64,000 bases of DNA. It comes from a virus. Below are positions 52 to 63,001 of the stretch, piece by piece (the stretch's first letter is position 1; each line of letters starts with the position of its first letter). The stretch is from the IMG/VR virus record IMGVR_UViG_3300008448_000016, positions 1-64,000 of that record; one strand, written 5' to 3'. The notes under the pieces are model-generated. The model saw only the letters and a list, made by a program, of their open reading frames with translations. It was not told the DNA's origin and did not search any database. Both the position numbers and the translations under genes were made by a program.

Positions 52-720
52 TTAATTTACGTTTTTCCAACTTCTACCATTTTTTAATTCATAGAAAAAA
101 CCTTTTCTAATTTGCGGGTAGAGTTCTGTTAATTGTTTAATTTTTATCCCCTCATTTATTTTTTGTTTTATTTCCTTAACTAATTCAACCCCATATTTTG
201 AGTTTTTTTGTTTAGTTTCATAAATTTTACTAACTCGTTTTTCTTTTTCTTCTTTTGATATTGATCCCCAACCTTTTTTAACTGATAATCTTCTTTTTTC
301 TCGTTCTTCGTCCGCCTTGTCCCCATATAACTCTTCATAAGTTTTACCTTTGTGTGAGTTACCATTTTTAGTATTTTCCGAAATTTTTTTCCTTATTTCA
401 GGCGAATGAACATATCCTAAACACCCTTCACCACCAAATGTAGAATTTAATCCATTTTTATACGTTTTGAATTCGGTAATATAAAATTTTTCTCTTTCAT
501 AAATATTTAATACATTACATTCTTCAATTATTTCTATATTAAAATTTTCAACCCCATATTTTCTAATAGAATTACAAAATTTAGTATTAGAGTCAGTTTT
601 TAAACATCTGTAAACGTGTTCTTCAAATCTTTTATTTATAGAATTAATCGTACATCCAATATATTCTTTTTTGTTTATTAGATTTGTTATTTTATATATG
701 TGTCCTTTTTGTGTGCTCAT
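52..720 (-). CDS. GIY-YIG homing-type endonuclease
   Basis: A 222-residue protein with the GIY-YIG nuclease fold at the N-terminus. The paired motifs are HIY at residues 7-9 and YIG at 20-22, followed by the conserved Arg of the KRFEEHVY segment (R31) and an acidic helix near residues 57-70 expected to supply the metal-binding Glu. The rest is Lys-rich, with a segment near 105-125 (PEIRKKISENTKNG) resembling the NUMOD3 DNA-binding repeats of phage seg-type enzymes. Such enzymes cut one DNA site and spread by recombination, and this one sits free-standing between small genes of unknown role. The ATG at 720 is the only good start. The family call is firm; the target site is unknown. Confidence 0.9.
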   Translation of the reverse strand: MSTQKGHIYKITNLINKKEYIGCTINSINKRFEEHVYRCLKTDSNTKFCNSIRKYGVENFNIEIIEECNVLNIYEREKFYITEFKTYKNGLNSTFGGEGCLGYVHSPEIRKKISENTKNGNSHKGKTYEELYGDKADEEREKRRLSVKKGWGSISKEEKEKRVSKIYETKQKNSKYGVELVKEIKQKINEGIKIKQLTELYPQIRKGFFYELKNGRSWKNVN

Positions 721-766: not shown

Positions 767-1108
767 TTATTTTAATCTCATTAAATTTTTTATGAATAAT
801 ATAACCTCATCAAGTTGTATTACATCGTATATTATCTTTATCTTATAAGTAGTTTCCACTTCTGTTTTTGATAGGTAAATATAAATTCCTGATTGATGTC
901 TAAATATACCATCTAAATGAACTAAACTACCACCATATGACTTACTATTTAAATATTCAGTTGTAAATTTTTTGGTTAATAGAAGTTCAGGTGTTAATGG
1001 TATTGGATCCATACAATCAATCACACTATATACTTTACCAGTTTTAGTTAATAAGGATTTCAAGAAATCTTCAACCCTACTAAAATATTTTATTTCATTA
1101 TTTTCCAT
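767..1108 (-). CDS. hypothetical protein, 113 aa
   Basis: I do not recognise this protein. It is a soluble-looking alpha/beta protein without signal peptide or membrane segment, rich in Leu, Lys and Ile. It starts 6 nt downstream of the truncated last repeat of the CRISPR-like array, in the same orientation, so any transcript through the array would continue into it. It is followed by a 46-nt gap and then the GIY-YIG endonuclease gene. The start ATG at 1108 is the first in frame after the array. Confidence 0.6.
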   Translation of the reverse strand: MENNEIKYFSRVEDFLKSLLTKTGKVYSVIDCMDPIPLTPELLLTKKFTTEYLNSKSYGGSLVHLDGIFRHQSGIYIYLSKTEVETTYKIKIIYDVIQLDEVILFIKNLMRLK

Positions 1109-1114
1109 ATTAAA

Positions 1115-1271
1115 TCAAATTATAGGTTTCCTCCAACAGTTTCTGTAAATAAGAGATTCGTCTGTGCAGGGTGTGAGTCCCCTCAAATTATAGGTTTCCT
1201 CCAACGTGGAATAAGAGGAATACTGAAAATAGTAGGGTGTGAGTCCCCTCAAATTATAGGTTTCCTCCAAC
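1115..1271 (-). repeat. CRISPR-like mini-array: two full and one truncated 37-nt repeat, two ~30-nt spacers
   Basis: Read on the minus strand, a 37-nt sequence starting GTTGGAGGAAACC and ending GGACTCACACCC occurs at 1271-1235 and again at 1205-1169, with no mismatch. The first 23 nt recur at 1137-1115, where the repeat breaks off. One extra base after each full copy is also shared. Spacers are 1206-1234 (29 nt) and 1138-1168 (31 nt); they differ from each other and from the rest of the window as far as I could scan. The repeat is about half G+C in a strongly AT-rich genome and contains codons unusual here (AGG, CTC, CCC). By memory its beginning and its TTTGAGGGG core resemble type VI-B (Cas13b) direct repeats of Bacteroidota. 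No cas gene is in the window. The alternative is a repeated 3' coding cassette, because copies 1 and 2 read in frame with the gene upstream. Confidence 0.7.
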
Positions 1272-1504
1272 CATATCTTCAGGATATCCTGTATTTGTTG
1301 ATATTCCATACCAAAAATGGTTTCAAAAAGTAACCAAATTCTTTTATAACTCACATAAAAAAACCCATTTTTTTTATCATGACAATAAAATAATAACGGT
1401 AATCTATCCTTATCAATGTAAAATGTTTTATCACCTCTAACTACTTTAGTTAAATTACCAAACTCCTTGTTTAACCAATTTATTATAATGTTCTGTTTTT
1501 TCAT
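1115..1504 (-). CDS. small unknown protein whose 3' end runs into the repeat array
   Basis: Residues 1-78 look like an ordinary small alpha/beta protein (start MKKQNIIINWLNKEFG; YHD and FYVSY strands; a final helix near 66-80). From residue 79 the frame enters the array: the first repeat encodes LEETYNLRGLTP (79-90), the first spacer encodes an unrelated stretch (91-100), and the second repeat encodes the same 12 residues (101-112). The third, truncated repeat is read in another frame and supplies the TGA stop, because the spacing changes from 66 to 68 nt. So the protein either ends in the array by chance or its own 3' end is the first repeat unit. No promoter is seen between it and the DUF932 terminator 7 nt upstream. 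Function unknown; I recognise no domain. Confidence 0.6.
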   Translation of the reverse strand: MKKQNIIINWLNKEFGNLTKVVRGDKTFYIDKDRLPLLFYCHDKKNGFFYVSYKRIWLLFETIFGMEYQQIQDILKIWLEETYNLRGLTPYYFQYSSYSTLEETYNLRGLTPCTDESLIYRNCWRKPII

Positions 1505-2355: not shown

Positions 2356-2404
2356 CTAACATCAAAAAAAATTTTAAAATTATGGGGTGTTTATACCAAA
2401 CCCA

Positions 2405-2414
2405 TATATTTATA
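2405..2414 (+). promoter_or_regulatory. TATTTAT-type promoter candidate before the second GIY-YIG gene
   Basis: TATATTTATA ends 3 nt before the preferred start at 2418. Such a short distance would imply a leaderless transcript, so this copy is less certain than those before the structural genes. Confidence 0.35.
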
Positions 2415-2417
2415 TAT

Positions 2418-3197
2418 ATGAGATGTTATGTTTATTTACACAGAAGATTAGACAATAATGAAGTTTTTTATGTTGGTAGAGGAACCGTTAATATAAAAGC
2501 TAGTGGTAAATGTGATACCAACACATATAGTCGTGCTTATGCTATTCATAAACATAATAAATATTGGATTAGAATAACAAATAAAGTTTCTTGGTCGGTT
2601 GAGATTATTGAGGATTTTTTAACTTGGGATGAATCCATGTTATCAGAAATTAAATACATAAAAAAGTATGGTAGGAAAGATTTAAATGAGGGGACTTTAG
2701 TTAATTTTACAGATGGTGGTGAGGGATCTAAAGGTGTTATTGTTTCAGAATTAGTTAAATCAATACAAAAAAATCGGATGAGTTCAGATGACAATCCAAT
2801 GAAACTACAACATAATAAAATAAAACAAAGTATTAGAATGAAAAAAAATAATCCAATGAAAAATAATGAAACCAAAAAAAAAGTTAGTGAATCACAAAAA
2901 TCCATTTGGTTAAATGGGACTGAAAATCATCCAAGAAAAAATAAACCTAGAGAAGATTTGAGGTTGAGAAACCTAACTAATAATCCAACTAAAAACCCAG
3001 AAGTTATTGAGAAAATAAGACAATCAGCATTAATGAGGGATAATAAAGGCGGTAAAAGTCCTAACGCAAAAAAAGTAATGGACGTAAATTCAGGTAAAAC
3101 ATACACATCAATAAAAGAATGTATGGAAGGAATGGGTATTTCTCACACTTCAATTTATCGTTATTTAAAAAATGGTAAAGTTATTTATATTAATTAA
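2418..3197 (+). CDS. GIY-YIG homing endonuclease with NUMOD-type DNA-binding tail
   Basis: 259 residues from the start at 2418 (MRCYVYLHRR). The nuclease motifs are YVY (4-6) and FYVGRG (17-22), with R39 and an acidic patch near EIIED (about 60-66). The middle (about 120-190) contains repeats of the NPMK / ETKKKVSES kind typical of NUMOD3. The last 45 residues (from AKKVMDVNSGKTY) have the NUMOD1 form: a short beta strand and a helix-turn-helix ending in IYRYLKNGK. It is the only plus-strand gene in the first 6 kb and ends by overlapping the next convergent gene by 4 nt, as expected of a recent insertion. An upstream in-frame ATG at 2382 would run through the promoter-like motif, so I do not use it. 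Confidence 0.9.
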   Translation: MRCYVYLHRRLDNNEVFYVGRGTVNIKASGKCDTNTYSRAYAIHKHNKYWIRITNKVSWSVEIIEDFLTWDESMLSEIKYIKKYGRKDLNEGTLVNFTDGGEGSKGVIVSELVKSIQKNRMSSDDNPMKLQHNKIKQSIRMKKNNPMKNNETKKKVSESQKSIWLNGTENHPRKNKPREDLRLRNLTNNPTKNPEVIEKIRQSALMRDNKGGKSPNAKKVMDVNSGKTYTSIKECMEGMGISHTSIYRYLKNGKVIYIN

Positions 3198-17670: not shown

Positions 17671-20052
17671 TTAAACTTGCTGATATATTTCTGAAATATT
17701 ATTTTCTTTTTTGATTTTTATTATGGAATCCGCCCATTGACTGATCATAGGATTATGGGTGATAACAAAAATTTTCTCAAAATACTCTTTTATTTTAATG
17801 AAAAATTCAGATACCATATCTAAATTATCATTTGATATTTTACCAAAAACCTCATCAAATACAACAACATTTGGTTTAGGTAAAGAACATATTTTACTTA
17901 AAACTGATCTCAAAGCCAAAGATGCAATTGTTCTTTCATATCCAGATCCTGATGTCATTAGTTTTTCAATACCCGTACTATTATCTATCATAATGAATTC
18001 AACCTCATTTTTATCATTAATCCTAATTTCTAATCTGAAGTATGAACTATCCTCCATTAATCTTTGTAATTCAGAATTTATCAAAGGCATCATTGTTTTC
18101 ATAATAATTTTTGATACACCATTTTTACCAAAAGCCTCCAAGTAAATCTTATAAAGTTTTTCTTTTTCAGACTCTTCATTTATTTTAATGATAGTCCTCA
18201 AGTTGGTTTCTATTTTAGATCTAAGATTATTAATTTCAAATTCGTTTGAAGTTATTTTATTTTTTTTATCTGCCTTTTCTCTTTCCAAATCATCAATTCT
18301 CATTCCAGCTTTAATCAACAAACCTTCAATTTTTTCATTTTCTTTAATTTTATCAAGAAGTTGGTTATATCTTTCCATTTTCTGATTGAGATTTTGGGTC
18401 TTCAAATCAAAACTTTCAACACTTAATTCGTATTTTTCTCTGATAAGTTTGTTTTTTTCATACTCATCAAATTCTTTTTTCAACCTTACAAATGTTTGTT
18501 CTATGCCTGTTAAAACCTGCATTGTTGTCCAAATTGTATCTTTTTGCATGATAAAACCATCAAGTTCTGAAATTTTTTGATTGGTGATCGCTGCGTTTAT
18601 TAACTCAATTCCACAATGTTCACATTTAATTCCACCTTCAACTGAAGTTTTTAATTTTTCAATTTCTTCAATTTTTGTTTCAAGTTGGATCAACTCTTTA
18701 TTTAAATTGTTATATTGTTCTTTTGCTTCGTCGTGTTTATCTTCGTGATAATATTCAGATGGTTCAATAACATTTATTTCATTCATTTTTTTAAGAACTT
18801 CATCTTTTTGATAATTCAATGAATTAATTTCTTCTTGAACTTTGGTTGGGTTTGTTTGCGCAATTTCATTATCAATATCTGTATGTTTTTTTCTCAACAT
18901 ATCATCGCGATAATTTTTACCCACCTTTAATTTTTCTTCAATATCAACAAGTTCAACATTAAGAGTTTTAATCTGATTATTAATATTATTAATGTCTTCC
19001 TCATACTGTTTATTGTCTTGTTTTAATTGTTCGGTATTATAAACATTTGATAACATTGATTTTGAAAAGTCCGAATACAATGTTTTTGCAACTTCTTCTT
19101 TTCTTTTTAAGAATTCAAGACCCATAAATCTTGAGAGGACTTGACCCCTAGCCGTAGGCTTGGAGTCAATGAGATCCTCAAGATTGGTTGCGGTGGTTAG
19201 AATCGTCATCAAAAAATCTTCTTTGGTTCCGATTGAGGACTTAATAAAGTTTTCAGTTTCTCTTCTTTGTTCACCAGTAAAATTCTGTAAACTCCCATCC
19301 GCAAGTTTTTTGAAAAAGTCCAATTCAGTTTTAACATTCCACTCACCTTTTTTGGACATTTTTCTTTCAATGTTTCTTACTATGATATACTCTTCACCAT
19401 CAATAATAACATCTCCCTTAACAACAACCTTATCCTTGTTTGTAAATCTATTAAAGATTTCCTCTGCCTTTGTCGTTTTTGTTGTTTCGTTAAAGAATAA
19501 AAACATTAGTAGATCCACACTTAATACCGTTTTACCCCCAAAATTTGGTGGATTTGATTCAATAATAGTTATACCATTACATTTGTCAAAATCAATTTTT
19601 TGGTTATCACCATAAGATAGGAAATTAGAAAACTCAATGTTTTTAATATACCATTTTTTGAATGATGTTGCTTCATCATAGGATTCAGAAACTTTATTTT
19701 CAACAATATTATTAATTGATAATATCTCATCAGTTTGAGATTCAAATCCTTTTGATTTTAAAAATTCACGAAGTAGATCAATCTGATAATTACTATCCAT
19801 TATGTTGACGGATACATCAACACTTTGCATAGTATCTTGCTCAACATTTTTAACTTTAGTTACTACATTTACATTTGTTGAGTTGTACTTTTTCTGAAAA
19901 TATTGTTTTACACTTTTTATCTTGTCTTGCGTAAAATTTTCTTGTATATCTTCCCATACAACTTGTATTGTTGGGTTTTGAAATTCAGAAAAATCTAAAT
20001 CGTTTATCATAATTTTATAATTAAATGGTTTTGGTGGATTAAATAGATCCAT
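17671..20052 (-). CDS. SbcC/Rad50-like recombination nuclease subunit (T4 gp46-like)
   Basis: 793 residues. A Rad50-type ATPase begins near residue 134 (WYIKNIEFSNFLSYG). The phosphate loop is ESNPPNFGGKT (165-175), where the usual first Gly is replaced. A long coiled coil carries a zinc hook (CEHCG, about 476-480). The second ATPase half has the signature TSGSGYERT near 700 and Walker B PNVVVFDEVFG near 730. About 133 residues precede the ATPase and have no counterpart in ordinary SbcC. With the SbcD-like protein at 21471 it makes the DNA-end processing complex used in recombination-dependent replication. The two genes are separated by four small genes. Confidence 0.92.
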   Translation of the reverse strand: MDLFNPPKPFNYKIMINDLDFSEFQNPTIQVVWEDIQENFTQDKIKSVKQYFQKKYNSTNVNVVTKVKNVEQDTMQSVDVSVNIMDSNYQIDLLREFLKSKGFESQTDEILSINNIVENKVSESYDEATSFKKWYIKNIEFSNFLSYGDNQKIDFDKCNGITIIESNPPNFGGKTVLSVDLLMFLFFNETTKTTKAEEIFNRFTNKDKVVVKGDVIIDGEEYIIVRNIERKMSKKGEWNVKTELDFFKKLADGSLQNFTGEQRRETENFIKSSIGTKEDFLMTILTTATNLEDLIDSKPTARGQVLSRFMGLEFLKRKEEVAKTLYSDFSKSMLSNVYNTEQLKQDNKQYEEDINNINNQIKTLNVELVDIEEKLKVGKNYRDDMLRKKHTDIDNEIAQTNPTKVQEEINSLNYQKDEVLKKMNEINVIEPSEYYHEDKHDEAKEQYNNLNKELIQLETKIEEIEKLKTSVEGGIKCEHCGIELINAAITNQKISELDGFIMQKDTIWTTMQVLTGIEQTFVRLKKEFDEYEKNKLIREKYELSVESFDLKTQNLNQKMERYNQLLDKIKENEKIEGLLIKAGMRIDDLEREKADKKNKITSNEFEINNLRSKIETNLRTIIKINEESEKEKLYKIYLEAFGKNGVSKIIMKTMMPLINSELQRLMEDSSYFRLEIRINDKNEVEFIMIDNSTGIEKLMTSGSGYERTIASLALRSVLSKICSLPKPNVVVFDEVFGKISNDNLDMVSEFFIKIKEYFEKIFVITHNPMISQWADSIIKIKKENNISEIYQQV

Positions 20053-61162: not shown

Positions 61163-63001
61163 TCAAGAGAAATTCACCGTAGCAAGATTAAGAACTCTAA
61201 CATTAATATCTGTGTTAGGGTATCTTATTTGATATATTTGGGTCGGTTCTGCAAATATAGTATCAGCAACTAACCCTATCTCTCTTGTTGTAGGATCAGA
61301 ATATGATTGTGAAGTTTGTGATGATGAATATTGACCCCCAACTTGATTAAAGAACTTCATGTCAGAAATACTAATAACCCCATTTTCACTTTGTATTTGT
61401 CTTCTTAATTCTGAAACATATACATTTTCACCCATTTGCCTTTGTAAGGGGCTAAAATAATTTGTTATAAGTTCAATAATTTTTGCAACCACAACTCCTT
61501 GATTTTGACTTGCATCAAGAACCACATCAACATTAACACTCAAATCAATAACATTTGCCGATTCAATTGAGATATAATCGTTTATCATTCTATAGTTTGA
61601 TAAATAATTTGCAACATTATTTTTTAATGTGTTTGATATAACTTCAGTTAATTTACCTGTTGAGTCGTATGATAACATTTTAACTTTAATTTTATTATTT
61701 TCTTCGGTAATTGCAACTTTACCAGGAGCACCAAATTGTGAAGGCATATTTCTTATAATTGATTCATAATCATTAATCGTAACCGCCCTATTTTGAGCGG
61801 CAAAGTTATAACTAACATATTGTCTAACTTCCTCCGTTGTCGGAGCATTTGATCCTCCGATTGCTGCGGTAACATTGTTACAAGTTAAAGAATTAACGAC
61901 AGTTGTGTTTGTTGATTCAGAAGGCCCATTCACAAAAAATGACACAGTTCCAATCTGATTTATAACGTTAACACCTAAATTGGTTGCTTGCCCACCACCA
62001 ACTCTATATTGTACAAACAAGGTTGTATTTGCCTTTAATGCGGATCCAAGGGCTAAATTATTTATATACTTACTTAAATCCAAATTAAAACCATTTCTCG
62101 CAAATTCTCTTAATTGTTCATCAGCGGAAACATTACCACCACCAAAAGTCATTTTTAAGAAACCTTCAGGAGTATATTCAGTTATAAATTTACTATCTGT
62201 TGTTATATATTTCCCAACTTTAACCCCTGGTTGATCTGACACTTTTGTTGGGTCTTCAATGAAGACTCTGTTTTCTGCTAACGCAGGAACTTCATACCAC
62301 CTGTTATTTAATCCCAAGAATTCTTGAGCTGTCGGTACATTAGTATATTGTGTCCCATCTTTTAATAAAACACTTGTTATACCTAATACATTTTTTTCAG
62401 GTAAAAATAATTCAAAGAATGGTTTAATATCATTTGGACTTATTGTTCTTTTGAATACCTTTGTAATTCCATTTACAACAACTTCTCGTTTAACTATGGT
62501 GTAGTTTAGTAATTTACCACTACCATCAAAATTAGGTATTTTTAGTCTATTTGGGGATCCTTCAGCATTTACCGCAGAAGAAAAATCAATATCATAAACC
62601 GTTTCAAATGGTTGACCAGCCCCATTAACCTGTGATCCTCTTCTTAATATTCCACAATATCTTAAATCTTCTTTATCACCAAACGCAGGAACTGTAATTG
62701 AGAAATCAACCAAAGCAACAGATGGTCTTTGTCCCGGTATTTTTAAACCATAAGTTCTTGCAATATTATATATTGATGATTTTTGTTGAGCATATTGTAA
62801 TACAGTTTCTTGTATACTTCTATCAATATTAAAATGTAGGTTATCAGTAACCGCAGCATTTAAATCTAATAGAACGGAGAAAATACCCGCATCATTGAAG
62901 TTTTGGATTAGATCGGGGTAATAAGTTCTTGTAAAATTAATTAATTCGGTTCTTATCCCTTGAAAATCTCTGGTTGTATATGATATTTTTTTGTTTGCCA
63001 T
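61163..63001 (-). CDS. baseplate wedge protein, gp6 / baseplate J-like
   Basis: 612 residues. The C-terminal half has the baseplate J-like fold, including RAVTINDYESIIRNMPSQFG and the later QRQMGENVYVSELRRQIQS. The N-terminus (ISYTTRDFQGIRTELINFTR) is the start usual for T4 gp6. It forms the ring-like part of the baseplate wedge together with the gp25-like protein encoded 5 nt upstream. Length matches T4 gp6 (660 aa). The best-supported structural call in the window together with gp25. Confidence 0.9.
   Translation of the reverse strand: MANKKISYTTRDFQGIRTELINFTRTYYPDLIQNFNDAGIFSVLLDLNAAVTDNLHFNIDRSIQETVLQYAQQKSSIYNIARTYGLKIPGQRPSVALVDFSITVPAFGDKEDLRYCGILRRGSQVNGAGQPFETVYDIDFSSAVNAEGSPNRLKIPNFDGSGKLLNYTIVKREVVVNGITKVFKRTISPNDIKPFFELFLPEKNVLGITSVLLKDGTQYTNVPTAQEFLGLNNRWYEVPALAENRVFIEDPTKVSDQPGVKVGKYITTDSKFITEYTPEGFLKMTFGGGNVSADEQLREFARNGFNLDLSKYINNLALGSALKANTTLFVQYRVGGGQATNLGVNVINQIGTVSFFVNGPSESTNTTVVNSLTCNNVTAAIGGSNAPTTEEVRQYVSYNFAAQNRAVTINDYESIIRNMPSQFGAPGKVAITEENNKIKVKMLSYDSTGKLTEVISNTLKNNVANYLSNYRMINDYISIESANVIDLSVNVDVVLDASQNQGVVVAKIIELITNYFSPLQRQMGENVYVSELRRQIQSENGVISISDMKFFNQVGGQYSSSQTSQSYSDPTTREIGLVADTIFAEPTQIYQIRYPNTDINVRVLNLATVNFS

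Follow-up and report, generated by a model that had tools for sequence, protein, structure and literature searches.

The first 64 kb (here called the window) of the 107,236-base virus record IMGVR_UViG_3300008448_000016 carries, on its minus strand, a short array of direct repeats and spacers whose first repeat is the 3′ end of a small protein gene. A preliminary description of this DNA, made from its letters, had proposed a mini-array resembling clustered regularly interspaced short palindromic repeats (CRISPR), or equally a new repeat-spacer element tied to a small gene. Both proposals are borne out by the relatives in IMG/VR: uniform spacers, polarity, and the repeat-spacer-repeat design recur in tens of virus contigs, with the first repeat formed by the gene's 3′ end. 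The spacers turn over rapidly. We tentatively interpret these elements as gene-anchored CRISPR-like repeat-spacer arrays of phages that would be filled in trans by an integrase of the Cas1-Cas2 type, a reading that we hold with slightly less than even confidence.

A repeat-spacer array at the end of a small phage gene

Two identical copies of the repeat lie at positions 1271-1234 and 1205-1168 of the minus strand and are followed by a truncated copy of 23 nucleotides (nt) at 1137-1115. The starts of successive copies are 66 and 68 nt apart, and such a pattern arose in 0 of 100 shuffles. The repeat seems to be 37 to 38 nt long in this array because both spacers begin with CT by chance; comparison with relatives sets the true repeat at 36 nt, GTTGGAGGAAACCTATAATTTGAGGGGACTCACACC. 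The description at the outset was thus correct for the two identical copies and the 23-nt truncated copy, whereas its repeat length of 37 nt becomes 36 nt and its inserts of 29 and 31 nt become 30 and 32 nt. The gene, an open reading frame (ORF) of 129 amino acids (aa), the parts of the array, and the next gene are as follows:

1115..1504, minus strand: small gene, 129-aa ORF; the conserved domain is formed by residues 1-90 (1235-1504), and the ORF beyond residue 90 is translated spacer and repeat, with the stop codon within the truncated repeat
1236..1271, minus strand: repeat copy 1 (R1), 36 nt; the gene's own in-frame 3′ end, encoding (W)LEETYNLRGLTP
1206..1235, minus strand: spacer 1, 30 nt, CTACTATTTTCAGTATTCCTCTTATTCCAC; unmatched elsewhere in its own genome
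1170..1205, minus strand: repeat copy 2, same sequence as R1
1138..1169, minus strand: spacer 2, 32 nt, CTGCACAGACGAATCTCTTATTTACAGAAACT; unmatched elsewhere in its own genome
1115..1137, minus strand: terminal truncated repeat (R′), 23 nt; ends in TTTGA, an in-frame stop
767..1108, minus strand: gene that immediately follows the array, 113 aa; its only match, to PHROG 10066, is weak

The same array was found unchanged in a separately assembled IMG/VR contig (L001) and therefore is no assembly error. Most relatives share the truncation point of R′. The downstream gene begins a few bases past R′ in the window, and its start likewise follows R′ in L043, L047, L058, and L060. The truncated repeat of most arrays ends in TTTRA, which provides stops in two frames and is perhaps retained for this reason.

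Array design among relatives in IMG/VR

The anatomy was drawn from 90 distinct gene ends. The last 36 nt of the gene, which begin with the third base of the Trp codon in the motif (W)LEETYNLxGVTP, typically recur downstream, and the common design consists of the 36-nt repeat that is the gene's 3′ end, a unique spacer of about 30 nt, further copies, and a final truncated copy of about 22 nt. Up to seven full repeat copies were present in one array (L032); many single genes retained repeat, spacer, and truncated repeat, and some diverged gene copies showed no array. The repeat period ranged from 64 to 69 nt, with a peak at 65 to 68 nt over all loci. The 121 nonredundant spacers were 28 to 33 nt long (mode, 30 nt), and 108 of them measured 29 to 31 nt. 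Each gene has a private repeat sequence, which changes along with the gene, and a search for the repeat-spacer-repeat pattern as arrays without the gene returned only contigs that were already known. Inverted repeats, e.g., AACTTGTAAG-TATTC-CTTACAAGTT, were noticed in some spacers of L054, L055, and L070, as if these came from terminators.

Since spacers of 29, 31, and 32 nt are common, later repeat copies leave the reading frame, and the unit is therefore conserved at the nucleotide level. An ordinary tandem protein repeat would account for the coding first copy and for those units that remain in frame. This explanation was rejected and is hardly credible: units of 65, 67, and 68 nt shift the reading frame, the codons are constrained, and the spacers are unrelated to one another. 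Free codon use, irregular spacing, and inserts conserved between phages had been named in advance as marks of a protein repeat; the codons were not free, the spacing was regular, and close relatives did not share inserts except for the oldest, gene-distal ones.

The constraint was analyzed in 81 nonredundant genes, with the codon use of the same genes as the background. Leu was encoded by TTG at a frequency of 0.87 in the repeat versus 0.14 in the background (P = 5e-44; the P values of this analysis are inflated by shared ancestry, yet the bias is missing from codons −8 to −6 upstream). Arg was encoded by AGG in 24 of 24 cases (background, 0.08), Gly by GGA at 0.73 versus 0.21, and Thr by ACA at 0.92 versus 0.50. 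This synonymous constraint begins a few codons ahead of the repeat and ends at the wobble base with which the spacer begins. The sequence of the terminal R′ covaries with that of the repeat (R) of its own gene copy.

Polarity and spacer turnover

The mismatch of a repeat to the gene copy grew with its distance from the gene in 33 arrays, a few of which represent the same locus in near-identical viruses (rho = 0.64, P = 3e-12). Mismatches amounted to 0.21 in the second copy and 2.8 in the terminal copy (P = 5e-6). In three locus families, the gene-distal spacer was common to relatives, while the gene-proximal spacers were different. L029 lacks exactly the first unit of L028 and L030 within flanks that are 99.85 to 99.95% identical, and the one-unit difference between L028 and L029 is equally compatible with gain and with loss. 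L048, L050, and L054, whose flanks are 95 to 99% identical, share zero spacers. Near-identical direct repeats, unique spacers of uniform length, and polarized growth, three features of CRISPR arrays, are present, with a protein gene at the leader end. In anatomy and growth these arrays work like CRISPR; we do not class them as CRISPR proper because cas genes are absent and the repeat is coding and private to its gene.

Cassettes of this kind might also be made without any integrase, by recombination or by polymerase template switching at the gene end. T4-like phages recombine freely, no integrase was found in the phage, and R and R′ change in concert, all of which would agree with such an origin. 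Inserts of variable length and growth without polarity would be expected from template switching, whereas the inserts are nearly constant in length (29 to 31 nt in 108 of 121) and growth is polar; we consider this origin improbable.

Machinery searches and kinship with known CRISPR repeats

Fifteen larger virus records were searched for machinery. No Cas1 was detected in them, which upholds the earlier statement that the array lacks cas genes. The same records contained no reverse transcriptase, by which a diversity-generating retroelement would be recognized, no Nop domain as in TIGR-Tas, and no TnpB/Cas12f domain as in OMEGA systems. HNH_4 matches occurred only in ORFs of 167 to 172 aa, which are too short to be Cas9. 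As for VIPR, which has a RAMP-fold protein, the small protein gave no significant fold match to any solved structure, and the repeat lacks the GGY/NN pattern. The repeat was not found in plasmid and phage collections, and Rfam gave no match at the gathering threshold and chance-level hits only at E ≤ 10.

The preliminary description had likened the repeat to those of type VI-B (Cas13b) loci and had considered a decoy for a host Cas13b effector. A 36-nt repeat, a 30-nt spacer, the start in GTTG, and the GAGGGG core would all suit a type VI-B mini-array or decoy. The similarity to a published PspCas13b repeat fragment (PMC11512209) was no better than that of shuffles (P = 0.09), however, and Rfam held no CRISPR match. 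In addition, the repeat is gene specific and protein coding, and the only spacer with a matched source has the sense orientation of that gene. The proposed kinship did not hold up, nothing positive emerged in favor of a decoy, and a Cas13b array or decoy is very improbable.

Spacer sources and reading frame

About 100 spacers were compared with 44 virus records, including the window's own, and all matches fell within arrays; the lone extra match (G040:35215) was another array with a homologous terminal spacer. The spacers are therefore not derived from the virus records that carry them. Their GC content is higher than that of the carrying locus (P = 3e-5), and their coding-frame signal exceeds that of shuffles. 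The spacers gave no matches among INPHARED phages. A spacer of L033 matches the IS3-family transposase orfA of Flavobacterium plasmid NZ_CP109997.1 over its full length (29 of 30) on the sense strand; no more than three hits reached E ≤ 10 in 7.3 Gb, and this one ranked first. The core of this spacer occurs in IMG/VR only in the spacer itself. This one strong match supports the view that spacers may come from host-side DNA, here a Flavobacterium insertion sequence element. Degenerate searches found nothing for the TWDDHDYGF spacer in GTDB genomes and only the spacer itself for AMLPQNVGPF in IMG/VR. Read by eye, some spacers resemble glycyl-tRNA synthetase (RPETAQDIFV), a PhoD-like protein (TWDDHDYGF), or an adhesin (CTGTYTATV), which is an unverified lead only. 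The first of these resemblances echoes a huge-phage spacer reported to match a glycyl-tRNA synthetase gene (PMC7162821).

Spacers foreign to the phage would also be expected of a by-product, in which host Cas1-Cas2 inserts DNA off target at a gene end that looks like the junction of leader and repeat and the spacers are useless or at most serve as an adaptation decoy. The 36-bp repeat and the polarity, which are as in Flavobacterium type II-C and VI-B loci with their in-trans Cas1-Cas2 (PMC8092290), would fit this scenario as well. Such a sink should contain self-spacers from the infecting phage, none of which was seen in the 44 virus records, and the long-term constraint on the repeat and the presence of up to 16 domain copies per genome argue for use; we regard it as quite unlikely.

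The spacers were open in the gene's frame in 93 of 121 cases, compared to about 60% in the other frames (P = 3e-4). This excess would be explained if the array were a store of C-terminal tails: a change of the first unit would swap a tail of about 10 residues, and the downstream units would be silent cassettes, much as in a diversity-generating system that varies a binding surface. The difference between L028 and L029 would exchange the tail, and translation ends within spacer 1 or R′ in many copies. However, the first spacer, which is translated, is no more often open than the later ones (48 of 67 versus 45 of 54). Spacer length (28 to 33 nt) ignores the frame, leaving downstream repeats out of frame, tails have no need of synonymous constraint, and the 15 virus records hold no reverse transcriptase. 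Tail variation as the purpose of the array appears unlikely.

The small protein and its genomic neighborhood

The 90-aa domain occurs at about 65 IMG/VR loci, where a single record may contain as many as 16 copies and the carrying records reach 304 kb; 123 instances of small-gene relatives were recovered, 81 of them nonredundant. It has no sequence relative in Pfam, PHROG, PADLOC, or PDB, was absent from a scan of 84,980 GTDB species genomes, and was not found among INPHARED phages. An AlphaFold2 model of the small protein shows, with high confidence, an α-β-β-β-α-α fold (pLDDT, 92.9). Its close structural matches are unnamed proteins from uncultured Caudovirales phages only, and there was no significant fold match among solved structures. 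A 261-kb record (L083/G035) contains 16 domain copies, several of them in tandem rows, which form a large paralogous family; many of these copies keep merely a remnant array or none. At L040:2746 and L038:3160, an array remnant of repeat, spacer, and truncated repeat is embedded in a longer fused ORF, where it serves as a coding linker.

A whole-record search with 23 nt of the repeat revealed a second array in the same phage, on the other strand at genome positions 98266-98489. It has the same period and a related but different repeat, and the gene ahead of it encodes a superoxide-dismutase-like domain joined to the same 90-aa domain. In one ORF at L005:155-1555 (genome 96920-98320), an N-terminal part with an HExxH motif is joined to a fold like that of Fe/Mn superoxide dismutase and to the domain that bears the array; such a fusion is unusual in a phage.

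In the window, a GIY-YIG homing endonuclease gene (52-720, minus strand; PHROG 314) lies two genes away from the array, and an ORF resembling it (2382-3197, plus strand) lies on the far side of a DUF932 gene. With an SbcC-like nuclease subunit (17671-20052, minus strand) and baseplate wedge proteins (61163-63001, minus strand), the carrying phage looks like a T4-like myovirus. The host phylum of the carrying phages is probably Bacteroidota.

A model for array growth and use

Frame-breaking spacers, synonymous constraint, polarity, spacer turnover, and apparently foreign spacers together mark the element as CRISPR-like rather than as a protein repeat. In the mechanism that we propose, the small gene would play the role of CRISPR leader and first repeat. 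Outside DNA of about 30 bp would always enter at one site, namely, the third base of the Trp codon in WLEETY. The insertion would duplicate the 36-bp gene end and so leave the gene intact save for a variable tail. Older units would be pushed outward, where they would decay, and a remnant of 22 to 23 nt would close the array. A ruler-type integrase, for instance, Cas1-Cas2, is slightly favored as the capturing enzyme; we place it in trans because searches of the phages yielded none. By analogy with the 36-bp repeats and in-trans adaptation of Flavobacterium (PMC8092290), host Cas1-Cas2 would be the best candidate.

The capture mechanism is better supported than the use of the arrays, for which we lean toward guide RNA, with tails as the alternative. 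It is possible, though held with less confidence than capture, that the array transcript gives rise to RNAs that act like guides against DNA of the host or of mobile elements and are partnered by the small protein or by an effector of the host. More doubtful is a new acquired-memory element in which the gene end is the array repeat, the small protein binds repeat DNA for capture or repeat RNA for use, and host or rival DNA supplies the guides.

Several observations weigh against an integrase-filled guide array. The integrase itself is hypothetical, as no Cas1 was found in the 15 virus records. Repeats differ among the paralogous genes within a phage, and it is not obvious that a host integrase with sequence specificity would accept such differences. 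Folding of the repeat, a check proposed at the outset, gave no conserved hairpin (RNAalifold, 46 repeats). A solid source is available for one spacer only, bacterial chromosomes having lain outside the search; recognized sources are sense to the gene direction and so unsuited to mRNA targeting; and the open-frame excess is not predicted by a pure guide array.

Comparison with known systems

No system with these features is described in the literature that we searched. The arrays resemble the TnpB/IscB OMEGA RNAs in that the TnpB version is a noncoding element sharing sequence with the 3′ end of the protein gene; they differ in having no TnpB/Cas12f match and many spacers per locus, where OMEGA has a single guide. 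TIGR-Tas (PMC12045711) shares phage-borne interspaced arrays, truncated end repeats, an adjoining protein gene, and locus-specific repeats, but its units have two repeats and two short spacers and its protein has a Nop domain, neither of which is seen here. VIPR (PMC13142463, a preprint) is likewise phage borne and based on the idea of a repeat-derived guide RNA, but its RAMP protein and GGY/NN repeats are both missing here.

The portogloboviruses of Sulfolobales carry similarly short arrays without viral cas genes, and the spacers of their mini-CRISPR arrays turn over at one and the same site among related viruses, with acquisition presumably run by the host (PMC6858448). Leader and repeat are in that case copies of the host's and the array is intergenic (PMC6858448), whereas here a conserved protein gene constitutes leader and first repeat, every gene copy has its own repeat, and several arrays per genome are possible. 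The arrays of huge phages that lack cas (PMC7162821) are also compact, occur in large phages without acquisition genes, and include some host-gene spacers. They differ in having host-like CRISPR repeats or lying beside cas genes and have not been reported inside a gene end. The Flavobacterium type II-C and VI-B loci resemble the present arrays in their 36-bp repeats, GTTG motif, and presumed host phylum, and in-trans activity of their Cas1-Cas2 on dissimilar leaders and repeats is known (PMC8092290). Here, in contrast, cas genes are missing, and the repeat is coding, different in sequence, and variable. In addition, the GTTGG end is the one that faces the newest units, in contrast to Flavobacterium columnare, in which the GTTGT end of the repeat is leader distal (PMC8092290).

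Arrays of the CRISPR type are expected to have a noncoding leader and cas genes; here, a protein gene is the origin, and coding, gene-specific repeats nevertheless go together with one-ended growth by apparently foreign inserts of ruler length. If host Cas1-Cas2 captures the spacers, these phages have made host adaptation a tool or a decoy; if it does not, an unknown capture enzyme exists. The arrays could also serve the study of how repeat-spacer arrays first arise.
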